This document shows, in pieces, positions 23,876 through 33,301 of a stretch of DNA of 64,000 nucleotides (its first letter is position 1; the number at the start of each line of letters is the position of its first letter). The translations under genes and the position numbers were made by a program. The DNA comes from Hyaloraphidium curvatum (Eukaryota; Monoblepharomycota; Hyaloraphidiomycetes; Hyaloraphidiales; Hyaloraphidiaceae). The stretch covers positions 310,001 to 374,000 of the forward strand of contig JAIVFI010000005.1 of the NCBI GenBank assembly GCA_025558095.1, in the 5' to 3' direction. The notes below the pieces were generated by a model, which saw nothing but the letters and a program-made list of their open reading frames with translations, was not told the DNA's origin and did not search any database.

Positions 23876-24682
23876 CTACCGTTGCACTTCGTTCCGGACC
23901 TTCTTCCTCCACTCGCAATGGTCCAGACTCGCCGTGATCGGCCCCGGGCGGGCGTTCCACGCCGCAAGGATGCTGGCCGCCGCATCGCTGCCGAGCTTGG
24001 GGAGCTCGCCGAAGTAGTGCGGTTGGATGTCGTAGATGTCCGGCTTGAGCAGCACGCCGGCCGCCTCGGCAGCGCCGCCCTCCCCGAGGCCCCAGTGCTC
24101 GGGGTAGATCTGCGCGAGCTCCGGGTACTCGTAGATGAACCAGCCCGCCTTCATGCGGATCCACTCCTTGCCGTTGCAGTCGATCTTGCCGGAATTCGAC
24201 GTCGTGCACCACTGCTTCTGGGGCCACTCAGGCAGGATCTCGCCGCAGCCGCCCTTGCAGAGCGGAAGAATCCCGTCCATTCCGAAAGCCCTGGCCGCCG
24301 GACGAACGGTTCCGAAGCGTGCGTAGTGCTCGCCGTTGCAGCAAAAGGGAAAACGGCTGCCTGCCTTGGGTCTGCGGGGAGGGTCAGCTTGCATGCATCC
24401 GCGAACGAGCCGGCAAACCCACCTGTGCATCGTCAGGCACCACTGGCACGGACGTTTGCCCTCTTCGGTGCCGACGATGTATGCTTCCGAGTTGAGGAAC
24501 GTCAGCTGCGTGTAGTAGTCCGACGCGGGGCTCTTGGCCGAGAGGAAGTCGAGGCGCACGGGACTGGTTCGCGCCGGCGACGTCAGCATTCGTTTGCGCC
24601 GCGGCACGGCGCATACCCGCCGCATGAATATCGGGGTAAAGTCCGCCATGCCGGCCGTGGCTGCTGGGCACGCTGCCGCCAT
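23876..24682 (-). CDS. Cys/Trp-rich protein of unknown function
   Basis: About 269 codons if the ATG at 24682 (MAAACPAATAGMADF) is used; the frame stays open upstream to 24895, so a 5' exon is possible. The middle and end are rich in Cys and Trp: CQWCLTMHR, RFPFCCNGEHYARFGT, PLCKGGCGEILPEWPQKQWC and GWFIYEYPELAQIYPEHWGL. A 51-nt GTGGGT...CCGCAG segment at 24372-24422 is in frame and looks like an intron. The Cys-rich pattern suggests disulfides or metal binding. No signal peptide is obvious at this start. I do not recognise the family. Confidence 0.55.
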   Translation of the reverse strand: MAAACPAATAGMADFTPIFMRRVCAVPRRKRMLTSPARTSPVRLDFLSAKSPASDYYTQLTFLNSEAYIVGTEEGKRPCQWCLTMHRWVCRLVRGCMQADPPRRPKAGSRFPFCCNGEHYARFGTVRPAARAFGMDGILPLCKGGCGEILPEWPQKQWCTTSNSGKIDCNGKEWIRMKAGWFIYEYPELAQIYPEHWGLGEGGAAEAAGVLLKPDIYDIQPHYFGELPKLGSDAAASILAAWNARPGPITASLDHCEWRKKVRNEVQR

Positions 24683-25572
24683 CTTTCGTTCGATGTACTG
24701 TATTTTGCCACATTGAAGCAACATTTTGCAGAACGCAGCGCCACAGCCGCAATCACCCGGGCCGATGTCGGAGGGAAAGACGGCGTCAGTAGTGCGCACG
24801 CGCAGCCGTAGCCACTTACCCTGGCGGATAGGGAGCAAGGTCCAAGATCCTCGGAGCAAGTCCCGTCCAGGTATATCTAGATGCTGGTCATGCATCGGTG
24901 AAGATTGTAGATCGGCGCGGCCTCAGGCAGTAGCATTAGAGCATCCGCTTGTGCCTCCACTATGACGTTATGATCAATGGTGTGGAGAGCACAACTTGAA
25001 AGGCACGGTCATGCTAGCGGCCGAGTCCGCGCGTCGACTGATGATAGAGGCGTAATCAGTCGGATGTGACGGCATGACGCGTTGCGAGGACTGACATAGA
25101 AGATTCTTCTCAGCTTGAAGGCAGCCTGGATGAGAAGCGAGGTCGAGAGGAGACGGACGATAAGAGAAGCCCGCGCCCTCGCGGCCGCACCGGGCATCTC
25201 CCGAACCTCGTCGGTGAGCACGAGGACTGGGTGCTGTCATAGAGGTGGCCTCGCGTATGGTCAGCAGCACGCTGTGACGAGCGCGGATGACGGGGAGCGT
25301 CGAATCCGGCGGGCGAGAAGGTCAAAGCCCGAGTCAATGGGCGTCCGGCGTGCGTCCGCAGCCCCCGCTCACCGAGACAACGCCCTCGACGGCGAGAGCG
25401 CGCTAAAGACGAAGCTTCTTGCGTTTCCTTTTGGCTCTCATCGCCTGGTCTTGCGGGAGGCAGGGTTCAAGTGATGAACGAGCGCACTGTCACCGTTCGT
25501 GGAGGCCGCCGCGGACAAAAAAACATGGACAGAATGAAGAGCGCCAACATCAATCACGGACCAATCGGCTCC
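24683..25572. other. Non-coding stretch 3' of the Fanzor gene; candidate guide-RNA region
   Basis: Nearly 900 bp without a convincing gene, except for a possible 5' exon of the Cys-rich gene near its left edge. The part from about 24990 to 25572 lies directly downstream of the minus-strand Fanzor stop codon (25573-25575). In characterised Fanzor and TnpB elements the guide (omega) RNA overlaps the 3' end of the nuclease gene and runs into the flank. I see GC-rich segments that could fold (25180-25330) but cannot prove a structured RNA or an element end. Confidence 0.3.
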
Positions 25573-28500
25573 TCAGATCAAGATGTACACGTATTCACGG
25601 AGAAGAGATAAAGCCTCACGCACCCGAGCCGTGACTACCTTTCCCTGGCATTCCTCCAGCATCCGCGCGAACTCGTCAGCTGTCCTGGCGCAGGGTGCGA
25701 TCGCGCTCCGCCTGATGATATCGGTCAGGTTCTCCGAGTCGGTTATGCTGGCTCTGGCGCCTGCGATGTTGGCGAGGAGAACTCCTGCCGGTCCCCGTGC
25801 AGCCTCGATCGCGGCTCTCGCCTCAGCCAGCGAGTCCTCCAAAGTTTCCGATTGCGATGCCTCCGCGAGGCTTTCTGCCAGCTTTTTCAGTGCTCCGAGG
25901 GCAGGCATGAGATGAGGGTTCTCGATACCCGTGATGAAGTAGGCGGGAGGGCGGGAATAGGGGGCGGGGCGCTCGCCTTGAAAGAGGACGGAGAAAGCTA
26001 TGTCCACGTGCACTTGCCCCGACAGCTCATCACGGTGGAAGAACAACTGGCAGTTTGGGCAGTATGAAGTGCGGATCGTGGGGTGGTCAACAAAGCCGCG
26101 ACACCTCGGGCAACGTTGGCTGCTGAGGTACTCGTCCACACGGACGATGATGTATCCAAGGGCGCGTAACTGGAACGCGAGGTCATCAGCGGTGGCATGA
26201 ATAAGATCGAGACCGATCTCGCCTTTTTCACCACGTGGAGAAAGAGGCCGCGGTGCCCGGAAGTGCCAGCCGCAAAGGAGTCAAACTCCGAGCCCACTGC
26301 AACGATGTGCCTCCCGACCTCCTCGCCAGTCAGCTTGACCGAACTGTTCTTGCCGAACTGCCTTGTAATCTGCTCCACAACTTGGTCGGCAAGGGACTGC
26401 TTGGATGCCTCGCGAGAGGCCTCGAGGAGCGCCACCTTGCCGTCGCGGTAACGAGATTCATAAGCCACACGGTCCGCCTCTGTAAAGTCCGAGATCGCCG
26501 TCGCAATGTCCTGCAGCTGAACGTCCTCGGACAAACCACCCCGAAGCAGAGCTTCCCGCTTTGCGAGCGCCTCCTGCGCCGCAAGGAGCTCGGAAGAAAA
26601 CTCGTCTGAATCCAACCGCTGGACTGCCATGCGCCGCTGGAACCGCCGCGCGGGCTCCTGCATGTGCGACCCCTTGACGAGAAGCTGCACGATATCGCCC
26701 GAGAGGGAATGCCAGAAAACTCCAGCTAGCCAGAAGCGCGTACCGACGTCAAGCCCCAGCACATGGAGTCCCGATTTCAGCAAGGCATCGACCAGCTTCT
26801 GATCGACCGGCGGGCTCTTGCGCTGCCCCGCTGCCCGTTCGTGAGCTGCAGCCGCACCAGATGCAAACTTTGGCGGCGGATCTAGGCCGTGCTTCCGATA
26901 GGCAACCTCGCGGGTCATGTACGCGACGCTGTCCTGTCCAAGCTGCGCTCGGTTCTTCGCAATGTCGATCTCGGCCGCAAGGCACACATCCCCCACTTCT
27001 GGGATTGCCAGCTCGGCTTCCCAGCCTTCCTTAGTGAGCTTTGGCAATCGAGCATCAGTGAAGTGAGGGTGGATGACGAACCCATCCGAATCGAAGCCCC
27101 CCGTAAGCTTCTTGAGCTCATGCCACGATCCGCCGCGAAGGTATCGTGGGTCAACCAGGAGATGCCGGAGCAGCTCGCCTGGCACAAGCCGCCAAACGAG
27201 CGCCAGATCCAGCTCGAGTCCGTCAACCCCTTTTGCGGTACGCTCGGCTATAAACCTCCTCGTGGATTCCGCGGCAACCCGTTCCTGCCATACAGCGGTG
27301 CCTTTCAGCGCCCCAACCAGGACGCCAGCTTCATCCACCAGTAGGGGGTACGCCGGCAGTGCCAGGGCAAGCATCTCCTCTGACAAGAGTACGCTCTTGG
27401 GAATGGCGTTCGATGGAAATGGAACAATGGCGAAGCGCGAGCGGCCGGGATTCCCAGCCTGCATTGCCCAGATGTTAGCGAACCGCTCCGGGACGGACAG
27501 GGAGTCGTCGGCAGCGATCCCCGCCGCGCGGTCCCGGTCAGCCTGGCGGGAAAAGCTAGATGCCATCATATACAGCCTGCCATTCCAGTGCGAGGAAAAG
27601 TCGCGCTCTGTGTGAGCCGCGGCAGCTTCCCGGAGGCGCGCGAGAAGCTCGAATCGTGTCGTACCCGGGATACCCGACCCGAGCACAGCGCCGAGGTCCG
27701 TGGAGAAAGCGGGTGGTATGAGTTCCGGCTGAGCTTCCAAGCTGTCGTAAGCCTCCTTGATCGCGAGGTAGTCGTCCTCCTTATGAAACGAGAGCATGGC
27801 CGGGTTAAGAAGTCCTGTCTCTTGCTTAAGGGGAAGCCTATGCGAGACTAGCGACGCAAGGCTCTGCCAAAAGCGCAATCCACGGTTGCCTGTGGCGTGG
27901 CTATCCAGGAAGAAAGGATCCAAGCGCCGGCGCACATCTGCTGCCGACAGGCCTTCGCGTTGGGCGAATCCGAGAGCGTAAAGAGCAAACCAGGAGGCGC
28001 GGGCTCGCAGTTCACGAACGTACTGGACGAGCCTCCTGACGAGGTCCATCTTGTCCCCGACGACCCGTGCCACAGTGTTCTTCATCACTTCTTCTTGATC
28101 CGCATCGGATGACCTCCAGATTGGCCTCCATTGACCGCGAACTGACTCTTGGTCGATGCACAAGGCTGACATGGAGGCCCTGGTGGAGTTTGCTTCCACT
28201 AAACCGACGCAGACGGTAAGCTCCCGAAACCTCCGCTGCCGAGCCCTTTTTTCCACTATCCCTGGGAGAAACTCTCTTTCGTCCTTCTCCCTCTCCGGGG
28301 CATCTGGATCATCCCATCGCGATTTCGCAGTCGCCCTGCTGTCGAACGTAACTGCACTGATTTTGCGCTTTCTCGTTTGCGCCGGCACGGAGGGCGCTGG
28401 AGTAATGTCCGTGGAATGAACACCCTGCAGAAACGCCTTGGCGACGACGTCCGGCGCCAAGGGCTTCCACGAGACGAGGCGCTCGCGCGCAAACTTGGAA

Positions 28501-29750
28501 GGAACGGGGTCGAAGGGGCGCTTCTGCGCCACGGTGTACTCAGGCTCAGTTGGTGCCGACCTGTCCACAACCAGTGTATCGGCGAGTGAAGCCAAATGCA
28601 CGGGACCTGCGACTGCGGCGCATCAGAAGGATCAACCAAATGGGACGGAAGCTCACCATCGAGAGGAGTGGACCCGTGGAAGAGCATCGTCGAGACCGCG
28701 TTCTGCATCTGCTGTAGCCACGGCCAAGAGACAGCGTCCGCCTTGTCGCCGAGGATGGCGGTGCTGGCTACAACGAGGAGATCCACGATTACCGGCACAT
28801 CTTCTGACTCGACGCCGCGGCCGACGATGCTCTCGATCTCGGCGAAAGCCCCGGAGCGCCACGCCTCGAAGGCCTTGCGGACGGTGAAATTGGCACCGTT
28901 TGGGCGCGTAATCGTTACCAAGAAACGCGAGTAGAATACGCAACATGTCCGGTGTAATATCCAGACGCGCTAGAATGTCCCTCGCGGAGTAGACGAGCGC
29001 TTGGAGCGCCCCCGGTTCAGAGGGCATGGATTCCGCGGCAAGCAGGTCCGCAAAAGGCAATGCGACCTCGTCCTTGACCACGCGCACGAGAAAAGGCACA
29101 ACATGGGCGAGGTAGTCGGAGTCCGTGCTAATGATCGCACTGCCTTCTTCAATAGCCCGCCGAGCCAGCTCCGGATCGGATTCCGCGTTTGCAAACAGAA
29201 GTTCGGCTCCAAGAGCACCGAGACAGTCCCGCAGCAGGGCGCCGTCGGTCGCGACGTTATACCTCCAAGATGCGAGCTCCTTTTCTAGCGCCAGCAGCCG
29301 GATCTCCCCGGACTGCTGCCGGCCGACCTTTGCCAGGTTCTCGGCGTTCCGATTGAAAGCCGCGACCTTCTTGAAGTCCTTTCCGGCCTTTGCATCACGC
29401 GCGTCCTGCGTGGGCTTCTTCTCCAAGCTCCGCTTCCCATCGAAGGCAAAGACGAGGATAGCGAGCGCAGCGTGACGCTCGTCGTCGCGGACCCCGAGCT
29501 TCTTCAGCATCCTTCCCAAGAGCTTGCCGGAGAGATCGTTTCTCTCCGCGTGGCTGGCACGATAGGCTTCCGCGCAGAACTCCCAGATTTCCATGTAGAA
29601 CACGGCGAGTGCGTCGACGACAACCTTCTTGTCGCTCGGGGTCTGGCCCTGCTTCCGCAGGTCCACGACCGCGGCAAATGCTCCATTTCTATAGAGTTTC
29701 GAGGGAGAAATTTCATTCTGCAGCCCTTTGAAGCTGCCGGCGATGCCCAT
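25573..29750 (-). CDS. XPG/FEN1-type nuclease fused to Fanzor1 RNA-guided nuclease
   Basis: The N-terminal part (from ATG 29750, MGIAGSFKGLQNEI) is an XPG/FEN1 nuclease. Its acidic residues are in VVVDALAVFY (29613), VFAFDGK (29439), NAESDPELA, STDSDYLAHV and LLAFLGNDY. The C-terminal part is Fanzor1. RuvC-I is LHVLGLDVGTRFWLAGV (Asp at 26748). RuvC-II is HIVAVGSEF at about 26290. The alternative Glu is in VRVDEYLSSQRCPRC (26131). A second Cys pair, SYCPNCQLFF, leads to the HRD Asp at 26029. The target-associated block LTGGFDSDGFVIHPHF is also present. A 44-nt intron (28618-28661, GTGAGC...CCGCAG) joins the halves. Another short intron (about 44-62 nt, within 26173-26240) is needed before the zinc finger. 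One +1 frame break remains at 28893-28910. The Fanzor half has no ATG before about 28170, so it probably cannot be a separate gene. Expected length is about 1,350 residues. Confidence 0.8.
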
Positions 29751-29835
29751 GACGACCAAAAGAGGTGGCCAGCGCGGTGATGGAACCAGGATACTTATGA
29801 GACGAGAATCCGACGCGACACAATACGGCAGAACC
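29751..29835. promoter_or_regulatory. Shared promoter gap between XPG-Fanzor1 and the HTH gene
   Basis: Only 85 bp separate the two divergent start codons, so both 5' leaders and core promoters must lie here or overlap coding DNA. It is mildly AT-richer than the flanks (ATACTTATGA). No TATA box or inverted repeat is clear. A DNA-binding protein encoded on one side makes auto-regulation of the pair a fair guess. Confidence 0.35.
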
Positions 29836-30890
29836 ATGGCTCCGCGAAAGAAGCCGTCGATTGCGCAGAAGGCTTCGGAGCTCGGTCGTCTGACCACCGG
29901 ATATAAGGTTACGAAGGCCCATGACCCGGGAGCCGGCGCCGACGCGGCTTGGGGCCCGAAACGCCCGTCCAAAAAGCTGGTGCCGGCAGAGAAGATCAAC
30001 GAAATTGTGTCTGAGTTTCTGGCGAATCCGACGCCCGAGAACAGGGACGCGCTGATGAAGAAGGCGGGAGCCAGCCGCTCGACTTTCTACAGCTGGGTCG
30101 CGGAGTTCAAGGGGCAAGGGAGCTTCGTTCGCAGGCCAAGATCCGGTCGTCGTCCGAAGCTGAGCGAGGAGGAGCGCGAGGAGGCTGCTCAGAACTATGT
30201 TTTCGGACTGAGGTCTCTGGATAAGGTCGGCGAGGAGAAGGGTGTCAGCGGCTCTACAATCCGCAGGTGGACCACAGGTGGCGAGGGAAGCAGGGCATTG
30301 CGCCCACGGAGGAACCCAACTACGCATCCCCGGAAGTCCCCGAGATGCCCCCTCAGGCACCGTTCGACGTCTGCCAGGCACTCTCTTCGAAGGACGGCCG
30401 CAACGTGCTGTTCTTCTCTAGGATCCTCGTTCACGTTCGCGAACAACCTGCTTTCGAAATCCATCTCCTCCTCGACGCCAAGAAGCACGTCGTTGCAGGA
30501 GAAGCGGTCAAGATTGGCACAAACTCGTTTATGTTCCTGATGAAGCACCTTGCCAAGGACTACAAGCCCGTCGGCGACGTCGGGGCCATCATCTGTTTGC
30601 CTGTCCACGGAGCAGGCATCGCCCACGATCTTCCCTGGAGCTGCACCAGCATCCTCAGATTCGGCCTCAAGATGATGCTGGTGGCGGGCCCCGAGATCGA
30701 CGCCTTGGATCCGGTATGGCTACTTTGGGAAGCGCACCTCGGCCCAGAGATTATTGCGGCGCTCAGCCGCGTGCCCGAAGCTGTGCGTCTGCAGCGTGCA
30801 CAGAGCCTCCTTCCGCCACGCATCGCGGCCCTCAGCGATACGTGCATACAGCGTGCAGTTGACGCGGCTTTCGCGGCTCAGCGCGAGTGA
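29836..30890 (+). CDS. Helix-turn-helix protein, possibly transposon-derived
   Basis: The first part (ATG 29836, MAPRKKPSIAQKASELG) has two helix-turn-helix-like segments: LMKKAGASRSTFYSWVAEFK and DKVGEEKGVSGSTIRRWT. They are separated by the linker SGRRPKLSEEEREEA, which is typical of Tc1/IS630-class DNA-binding regions. The frame then breaks between 30220 and 30295. A second open frame continues to 30890 (APTEEPNYASPEVPEMPP, RNVLFFSRILVHVREQ, PVGDVGAIICLPVHGAG). A weak GTCAGC...AAGCAG intron (30244-30293, 50 nt) would join them, or a real frameshift is present. The second part has no DDE motif that I can see. It is divergent from XPG-Fanzor1. Confidence 0.55.
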
Positions 30891-31023
30891 ATGCCGGGAC
30901 TTGCTGAATGCTGCAATCGACTTGCCTCGCGGATTTCTCTGGTTCGGGATGGGCGCGTAGCTGCCACTTGGAGATAGCAAAACGGATCGTTGACAATTGA
31001 CTTCACGTCCTTGTAGTCATCAT

Positions 31024-32289
31024 TTAGCAAATCAACACTTTCGCGCGCTCGCTTCTCAGCAGTCCAAGACGGATGGTTTCCTCCTCCATCTTCTTGAACC
31101 CGTTAATGATCGACTCCCTCCTGATGGCGTCCCAGGCCCTTTTGACACGCTCAGCCAGCTGAAGCATGTCATGACCAATGGTGCTACGGTACACAACTGC
31201 CTCGTGGGCTGCATCAACGAATCCATGCTGCTGTAAGGATGCCCAGGCAGCGACCAAGCCCGCCTTGAAAGGATGGTTGACCGCCAGGTCCAGTGGCTGA
31301 ACGTTCTTTGACTGCCCTGCCGGGATAACTACAACACCGAAATCGTGAAGAGCCAGTGAAGCGAGGGCCTGTTGGGACACGTGCGAGGAACAACGGTCCA
31401 TGATGAGGAGCTTCCTTCGCGGATCATGCAAAGCGGGTGCCAGGCATCTTGCTACCCAATCAGCGAATATGCCGCACGTCATGAACGATCCTGGCTGTTT
31501 CCATGCCATGAGCTGGCCCATGTATCCGCGACAGGGGGTTCCAGGCTCAACGCCATCAACACCTGCCTTCGCAATGACGCAAGGCGGAAGCTTGTCGCCC
31601 GCGGCGGTGACGGCCAGGACCACAGACACTCGGATCCGATCCTTGCGCTGGACCCTGATCGAGATGCGTTTCTGGCCTTTTGGTGCCACGGTCCTGCGTG
31701 GAGGGCTGTCGAGCCAAACGGGCGTCTCGTCCATGTTGACGACCAGCGCAGGGTCCGTGTCCCAGTACCCAGATTCCTCCAGCAAATTGGAGAACGCGAG
31801 CAAGTCCCGTGTAGTGTCTTTAAGCTCCAGCGGAACTAGCTTCAAAGAGGGCCGCGGCCTGTCGTGCGAGTATCGCGTTGTTGGTATCCGGAGTGCGAAT
31901 CCCCGACGCCTGAGGAACCCTGCGAACCACTTGCGCCCACATGTGAGCTTCAAATTTGTAAATGTGGTCTGCTGCATCAAGGTCGAGAGCAGCTCCGCCA
32001 TGCGCGCTTTGCAGTCGGCATAAGTGACTACGAAGCCGGAAGCCCGCTGGCCGCGGACCCATCGGGCTAGTTGAAGCTCGGCACGTTCATGCGGCAGCCA
32101 TACACGATGCGGAAGATGGCGGCGGAAAACTTTCCTAGGGGCTTTGCCGAGTTCCGGTGCCTGGGAGCACCAGCGCGAAAGTGTGGATCGGTGTACGCCG
32201 AGCTCCTTCGCCACACGCGACGCCGATCCCCGCGCCGCCTTCCGCACCGCTTTCAGCTTCCTGTCGATTGTGTAGGACCGCCTGCTCAT
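31024..32289 (-). CDS. pogo/Tigger-type DDE transposase, intact
   Basis: A single uninterrupted frame of 421 codons from ATG 32289. The N-terminus has a psq-type HTH (KAVRKAARGSASRVAKELG, then VHRSTLSRWC). A second CENP-B-like HTH follows and ends KWFAGFLRRRGFALR. The catalytic core has all three acidic residues: VVNMDETPVWLD, LLIMDRCSSHVS and NVQPLDLAVNHPFK. This matches the pogo family of cut-and-paste transposases (DDE_1), which make TA target duplications. No stop or frameshift interrupts it, so it may be active or domesticated. I could not find terminal inverted repeats by eye. Confidence 0.9.
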   Translation of the reverse strand: MSRRSYTIDRKLKAVRKAARGSASRVAKELGVHRSTLSRWCSQAPELGKAPRKVFRRHLPHRVWLPHERAELQLARWVRGQRASGFVVTYADCKARMAELLSTLMQQTTFTNLKLTCGRKWFAGFLRRRGFALRIPTTRYSHDRPRPSLKLVPLELKDTTRDLLAFSNLLEESGYWDTDPALVVNMDETPVWLDSPPRRTVAPKGQKRISIRVQRKDRIRVSVVLAVTAAGDKLPPCVIAKAGVDGVEPGTPCRGYMGQLMAWKQPGSFMTCGIFADWVARCLAPALHDPRRKLLIMDRCSSHVSQQALASLALHDFGVVVIPAGQSKNVQPLDLAVNHPFKAGLVAAWASLQQHGFVDAAHEAVVYRSTIGHDMLQLAERVKRAWDAIRRESIINGFKKMEEETIRLGLLRSERAKVLIC

Positions 32290-33301
32290 ATTGTGACTCA
32301 GTGTTGCTTCTTTGCCGCAAAAGACGGTAGTGGGGCTGTATTAGCAACCCGGACTTTCTAACCATGTCTGATCTAACAACAGATAGGTGTGTTCTGGGTG
32401 AAAGACCGTTCCATCCAGGCCATGGCGTTTTTGCAAAGCAGTATTTCGGAGTGTCCGGATTGTGTCCGGAGGCTTTGTAAATACACACACGTGGCGCCGC
32501 TTACGTGGCGCTCGTCGCAAGAACTACAAAAGCAGCGCCCGGGTGAATCGCCCGCGGACACCATCACCCACAACTCGGCCCCTTTGCTCCCCAGCATAGA
32601 GCGATGCGGGCCCGCAAGCGCAAGAAAAGCTTCCCGGTCGCGCTCTCGCTGTTGGGGGCGCTGTCCTGGTGGGAGCGCGAGCGCCGCGTGTGCCCCGTCC
32701 CCGTCGCCTTCTCACGGCGTCTTTCGACAGTGCCGGTGCCGTCAGGCACAGGAGCCTCATCCACGACGGCCGTGTGCTCGGCTCATTGAGAGAAGTAGGT
32801 CTCACGGGGTCGCGCCGGAACGACACACCGACCTGACCATTCTCCAGCACCCATCTTCTCTTCTTTTTTTCGCTTCTTTCTTTCTGTTACCGGCTGCAAC
32901 GACGGAGGGGCGACGAGCGCACGGGCGCTGCGCGGCGCCGAGGGCCGGAGACCGCCGATCGACTCGAGCTGGACTCCACGTGCATCCTCTTGCACCCCTT
33001 GGCATTGCGCGCAACTGTGGGGCTCGGAGCTCCATCAAGCCTACCTGCATGTGCACTATCCTGCCCGTCGCCCATGGATCTCCAACGTTGCCTTGGTGGT
33101 GAAACAACGTGTGGGTGCAAGCCTGCATTCGCCCTGCGAGCGTGCCGGCCAACGCCTTGCAGATTGATCTGGAGAATTTCGTGGGCAGGGAAGGGATATC
33201 AGGTGGCAAGTCGTTGATGACAGTAGCCAGAAAACTAGTAGCGGCGTCGAGACCGTCGAGTACGGATTTCAGATGTAGCCGCACTAAGCAGAAGCGGATC
33301 G
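32290..33301. other. About 1 kb without a supported gene, next to the transposase
   Basis: Several short open frames exist on both strands, but none shows a recognisable domain or a believable splice pattern. At 32430-32481 an imperfect 10-bp inverted repeat (TTTGCAAAGC and GCTTTGTAAA) encloses two copies of GTGTCCGGA (32451-32459 and 32462-32470). A pyrimidine-rich tract lies at about 32850-32890. The stretch may be transposon flank or the upstream region of the F-box gene. Confidence 0.35.

Follow-up and report, generated by a model that had tools for sequence, protein, structure and literature searches.

Fanzors have hitherto been described as RNA-guided nucleases that transposons carry and that stand alone. 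TA-flanked Mariner elements carry Fanzor1, and one of them, PGv-1, has a separate GIY-YIG nuclease as well (PMC3627910). The Fanzor clade is distinguished by a RuvC glutamate at an alternative place beside the zinc ribbon and by DPG in RuvC-I (PMC10711439). Among nucleases of the XPG fold, ASTE1 has been reported to cleave protruding single strands at breaks (PMC8785701). At the locus described here, motifs of both kinds of nuclease occur in what reads as a single minus-strand gene.

The window, a stretch of 64,000 nucleotides with a GC content of 63%, was analysed against a genome of 31.9 Mb in 55 contigs. A search of this genome for light-harvesting genes found none, and the host is a eukaryote that does not photosynthesise and is probably fungus-like; its eIF3c scored 355 bits against the best PDB eIF3c entries, compared with 195 bits against entries presumed to come from yeast. 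The XPG-Fanzor fusion gene occupies 25573..29750 on the minus strand, with an ATG at 29750 and a stop at 25573; the conceptual protein has 1,356 aa, and a codon-usage signal spans the whole gene. The XPG and Fanzor anatomy that the first-pass annotation had proposed for one minus-strand gene is essentially right by motifs, profiles and codon scores, while that reading had not included a second intron (26170-26231), a disruption at 28901 and the enclosing transposon.

All segments of the gene lie on the minus strand. The XPG nuclease exon (28902..29750, frame 0) encodes residues 1-283, with an MGI start and seven acidic residues. A 1-nt frame disruption follows at 28901, within the run CCCAAAC, where GNDYAP passes into NGANFTVRKAF and the codon scores change frame. 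The end of the XPG module, past GNDY, reads on in the shifted frame (28657..28900; codon scores +7.2 and +10.7), which is clearly the top-scoring sense frame there. Intron 1 (GTGAGC...CGCAG, with a frame switch at both borders) corresponds to the 44-nt intron previously taken to join the two halves; the intron exists, but at 28613..28656, five bases from the 28618-28661 that had been claimed. Next comes a linker (28171..28612) with a basic patch, TRKRK; it precedes the Fanzor frame's first ATG, which indeed lies near 28170, as had been noted. The REC/WED-like region of the Fanzor half (26232..28170) contains SDG, RuvC-I (GLDVG) and RuvC-II (AVGSEF). Intron 2 (26170..26231, 62 nt, GT-AG, GTGAAA...TTCCAG) splices ‘..GHRGLFLHV’ onto ‘LRALGYIIVRVDEYLSSQRC’, and its removal sets the GH motif and the zinc ribbon as far apart as they are in the genome's own Fanzor-like proteins. 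The C-terminal exon (25573..26169) holds the alternative glutamate, the C4 zinc ribbon, HRD and a C-terminal tail.

Codon-usage log-odds, trained on this genome's other genes including the DDE_1 transposase, favoured one sense frame at a time, with switches at 28901 and at each of the two introns. The XPG frame scored highest from 29750 to 28911 and the +1 frame over 28910-28671; the first frame, that of Fanzor, was again on top for nearly all scoring intervals from 28550 to 26271, and the third frame from 26150 down to the stop. The joined reading comprises 1,356 codons without a stop codon, and 28901 is its one disruption. An intron was rejected as the cause of the frame change there, as a search for GT-AG introns with an accepted GT donor found none that restores the frame. 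The change reflects a recent mutation or else a fault in the assembly.

The XPG half (minus strand, 29750-28902) is a run of 283 codons without a stop and contains the motifs MGI, VVVDALA, FAFDGK, NAESDPE, STDSDY and GNDY. The seven active-site acidic residues of XPG/FEN1/EXO1 nucleases are all present, in order: D46, D104, E190, D192, D210, D212 and D280 share columns with the EXO1, GEN1, XPG/Rad2 and ASTE1-like proteins of the same genome, the Rad2 fragment used being without the first two sites. These gene names were assigned here from motifs. With a profile HMM built solely from those four proteins, the XPG half scored 39.9 bits (2,364 sequences searched; E 4.6e-11), the highest of 2,000 shuffled controls reaching 13 bits, and profile comparison with hhalign gave a probability of 90.6%. 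The sole Pfam match was XPG_I_2, at 17.3 bits, under its cut-off of 24.2. The XPG motif set that the first-pass annotation had described is thus borne out by the aligned acidic residues and the HMM score, whereas its likening of this half to FEN1 is not: the nearest relative in the genome is instead the ASTE1-like gene on C16, with 42% identity over 62 aa. Structure prediction had been suggested as a check on the joined protein; AlphaFold models were run for each half with no alignment supplied, and both the model of the XPG half (pLDDT 38.7) and that of the Fanzor half were uninformative.

In the Fanzor half, the predicted catalytic residues are D986 (GLDVG), E1171 (DEYLSSQRC) and D1205 (HRD), together with the C4 ribbon. 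The TnpB/Fanzor motif of Bao and Jurka, D-X(125-275)-[TS][TS]-X-X-C4-X(5-50)-RD (PMC3627910), is found with a spacing of 187, and in none of 5,000 shuffles. The Pfam family Cas12f1-like_TNB matched the joined, spliced reading at 29.0 bits (cut-off 26.3) and, in the genome search, the zinc ribbon of the fusion gene at 34.9 bits; PADLOC matched the C-terminal exon to Cas12f (E 3.4e-4). E1171 (VDEYLSSQRC) adjoins the zinc ribbon and aligns with the genome's other Fanzor-like proteins. A PDB search with the Fanzor half gave a weak match (E 0.26) to the TnpB-like protein L79, which we take to be the mimivirus Fanzor2. The region 26232..28170 alone had no match in Pfam or the PDB, and a phmmer comparison of SpuFz1 with the Fanzor half gave no significant sequence match.

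The motif spacing and the TNB match speak for Fanzor/TnpB, and the glutamate beside the ribbon for the Fanzor clade. The assignment to Fanzor1, made in the first-pass annotation, finds support in the carrier, since Fanzor1 is placed in canonical eukaryotic DNA transposons and not in IS607, and the gene lies in a pogo-type element (24696-32329). Against it, RuvC-I reads DVG where the Fanzor clade has DPG, and the putative counterpart of the TDG motif of the Fanzor1 WED domain reads SDG in GGFDSDGFVIHPHF, the WED being placed from sequence alone. Because of these two departures we call the half Fanzor-like rather than proven Fanzor1; most probably, it is a Fanzor1 by its transposon.

A comparison of the window with the whole genome revealed that the stretches flanking the fusion gene on both sides recur together elsewhere. 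They belong to a pogo-type DNA transposon of 7,634 bp (24696..32329), with TA at both ends and 28-bp inverted ends that are alike at 22 of 28 positions. The left terminal inverted repeat, TACTGTATTTTGCCACATTGAAGCAACA (24696..24723, plus strand), matches the C6 copy at 24/28 positions, and the right one, TACCGTCTTTTGCGGCAAAGAAGCAACA (32302..32329, minus strand), matches the C39 and C13 copies at 27/28. Homology between copies begins exactly at 24696 and the flanks diverge beyond 32329; the ends read TACTGTATTTTGCC... and ...GCCGCAAAAGACGGTA, each with TA. Both ends, with unrelated flanks, were found at C39:269736-272731 and C13:652309-653063, and one end each at C6:888959 (left end) and on C20 (right end), so that four further insertions with different flanks, five in all, confirm the ends. 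Terminal inverted repeats and a TA target duplication, the marks of pogo elements, are both present. The four other copies are heavily decayed, hold transposase fragments only, and show no significant match to the XPG-Fanzor or helix-turn-helix proteins.

Besides the fusion gene, the element bears a DDE_1 (pogo-type) transposase of 421 aa (31024..32289, minus strand), an open frame with a DD35D triad by count, which matched PF03184 (DDE_1) at 55.9 bits (cut-off 22) and CENP-B_N at 22.5 bits (cut-off 21.2). A helix-turn-helix protein gene (29752..30890, plus strand), recognised by codon phase and by HTH_28 and HTH_Tnp_1 matches over their cut-offs, probably has two exons; no other copy of it was found in this genome. 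It is divergent from the fusion gene, with a gap of about 90 bp or less. Taken together, the element is, by its sequence features, a pogo-type cut-and-paste transposon with a fused XPG-Fanzor gene as cargo.

Two other boundaries were rejected. An inverted repeat at 25370-25402 and 32639-32671 is part of sequence held in common with a neighbouring repeat, and the idea of long terminal inverted repeats failed in that 32328-33288 is a separate 960-bp repeat with the ends TAGTG..CACTA. This repeat abuts the pogo element and has a TA target; at least seven copies of it, some full and some partial, are present, and three share about 97% identity. Outside the pogo element, 23912-24301 of the window recurs on C36 at 74-81%. 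The C39 copy of the pogo element encloses between its ends a coding fragment resembling an ABC transporter (L051/L058, C39:270400-270900), possibly captured host sequence.

The possibility that the XPG nuclease and the Fanzor are encoded by separate, neighbouring genes in one transposon has a precedent in PGv-1, where a separate nuclease stands beside Fanzor (PMC3627910), and the linker at 28430-28160 is weak in coding signal. A weak codon score is, however, expected of a disordered linker, and 28550-28431 reaches +13.5 in the Fanzor frame despite preceding the first ATG of this frame by over 250 nt. A fusion is therefore favoured over two genes, also because the XPG frame has no stop between the XPG domain and intron 1; moreover, the frames are joined through a GT-AG intron with a strong donor. 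We thus regard two separate genes as improbable; the pattern fits one spliced gene. An assembly chimera of two unrelated loci seems very improbable indeed, as the point of joining falls within an element that has matches to both its ends in other copies, strand and codon signal are common to the parts, and the contig measures 937 kb.

More weight must be given to the prospect that the fusion is real by descent and the present copy a decaying relic, in which translation stops after about 365 aa and no XPG-Fanzor protein is made today. The frame disruption at 28901 has no intron explanation, the fusion-bearing element is a single copy with inverted repeats only 22/28 alike, and the transposon's other copies are heavily decayed. 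On the other hand, the remainder of the 1,356 codons is stop-free, the transposase is open with its DDD triad kept, the catalytic residues of the fusion are all kept, and a 1-nt assembly error would account for the disruption equally well. The relic is accordingly a substantial possibility, if one short of even odds, and any decay would be very recent, since the frame is otherwise open and both the transposase triad and the catalytic residues are retained. The earlier claim of two metal-dependent nucleases in one polypeptide thus holds for the modules, which lie in one spliced gene, but is qualified by the 1-nt disruption. A single fusion copy of this kind may no longer be fully working; probably it represents the design either after a recent disruption or with a sequencing error.

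Returning to the intact fusion, a copy-back role at the donor site has been proposed for TnpB elements, and a comparable scheme can be put forward here. With a guide RNA supplied by the element's own terminus, the Fanzor half would cleave either the vacated donor site or an allele without the element, and repair of the guided cut would copy the element back. Tethered to the cut, the XPG half would trim flaps or protruding strands and so bias repair towards recopying of the element. A possible site for the guide RNA is the subterminal stretch at 24868..25445 (minus strand), which has two blocks about 70% alike in the Fanzor-less copies. In an alignment fold of this stretch among copies, the covariation term gave no support for a conserved RNA fold; an Rfam search for a guide RNA at the element returned no match, and local folds were weak, the top one having a z of -2.6.

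The first-pass annotation had envisaged that the XPG half removes the displaced strand or R-loop; end trimming would be at least as likely, because ASTE1 is reported to cut protruding single strands (PMC8785701). A different function, in which the XPG half does not cut DNA in repair and instead processes guide RNA or serves as a tethered domain that binds DNA or a partner, strikes us as unlikely. Fanzor guide RNAs need processing and XPG-fold proteins can act on RNA-containing flaps, but nucleases of the TnpB type probably process the guide RNA themselves, and the seven acidic residues that are kept would be superfluous in a mere binding domain.

That a transposon family has evolved a two-nuclease enzyme, with a guided cut by Fanzor, end processing by the fused XPG and repair steered to copy-back, is a tentative idea, possible though doubtful. 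Overall, a real fusion in a pogo-type transposon, together with the proposed copy-back and end-trimming mechanism, is the best explanation, to which we assign a probability of roughly 0.6. The two-nuclease enzyme of the tentative idea, if true, would to our knowledge be the first RNA-guided nuclease in nature to have a structure-specific repair nuclease built in. A natural fusion of Fanzor with a nuclease for flaps or overhangs would point to repair of the cut as a selected trait, the idea of copy-back at the donor site would become testable, and RNA-guided enzymes with controlled end processing could be modelled on the natural protein.

A homologue with both domains, which the first-pass annotation had looked to other genomes to supply, was found neither in this genome nor in viral contigs or prokaryote genomes, and plasmids gave no relatives. 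The same annotation knew of no such fusion, and the open-access literature is consistent with this: no open-access paper contained both ‘Fanzor’ and ‘XPG’, and the available parts of the Fanzor survey papers make no mention of one. Within the literature searched, the pairing could not be found described.

At the genome's other Fanzor-like loci no XPG domain was found. On C2, L028:2236-8433 and L029:1888-7018 (both minus strand) are paralogous Fanzor-like genes with very long N-terminal extensions, L028 exceeding 2,000 aa in all and probably spliced; one of the two extended proteins has a weak OTU-protease-like match (E 0.03). In view of these extensions and this match, fusion-like Fanzors may be common in the lineage. 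A further Fanzor-like family, with DPGN in RuvC-I, has three loci (L030, L031 and L032, on C12, C15 and C23), each with a common ‘SNRQLRMTSKRRGDHTMA’ stretch nearby. An open frame of 199 aa that weakly matches a zinc ribbon is present in ten genomic copies (L009-L018) of equal or nearly equal score.

Compared with the known systems, the XPG half resembles ASTE1 (XPG_I_2) and EXO1 in its MGI-type start and in the order and spacing of the seven acidic residues. It scores under the Pfam cut-off of the XPG_I_2 family, however, and ASTE1 and EXO1 are cellular repair enzymes without the fused RNA-guided nuclease that is present here. SpuFz1 of Spizellomyces punctatus has the same predicted RuvC D/E/D triad, with the glutamate just before the zinc ribbon (PMC10432273; PMC11423790). 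SpuFz1 is described without an XPG domain, whereas the Fanzor half here is fused to one; by Rfam, local folds and covariation, no guide RNA was found at the present element. At about 990 aa, the Fanzor part is also longer than the usual 600-700 aa (PMC11423790).

The Fanzor1 proteins of the Tc1/mariner elements PGv-1 and PUl-1 (Bao and Jurka, 2013; PMC3627910) have the same TnpB-like C-terminal motif and are likewise carried by TA-flanked DNA transposons with their own transposase. There, Fanzor stands alone or beside a separate GIY-YIG nuclease, and RuvC-I has DPG, whereas the present gene includes a fused XPG nuclease and its RuvC-I has DVG. With Pogo/Fot1 (PMC7325037) the present element shares the DDE_1 transposase, the CENP-B-type helix-turn-helix, DD35D and the TA target, but it bears two extra genes, the fusion among them. 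Given the TA-flanked Mariner elements that carry Fanzor1, the carrier belongs to a kind already described, and it is the fusion that sets this locus apart.
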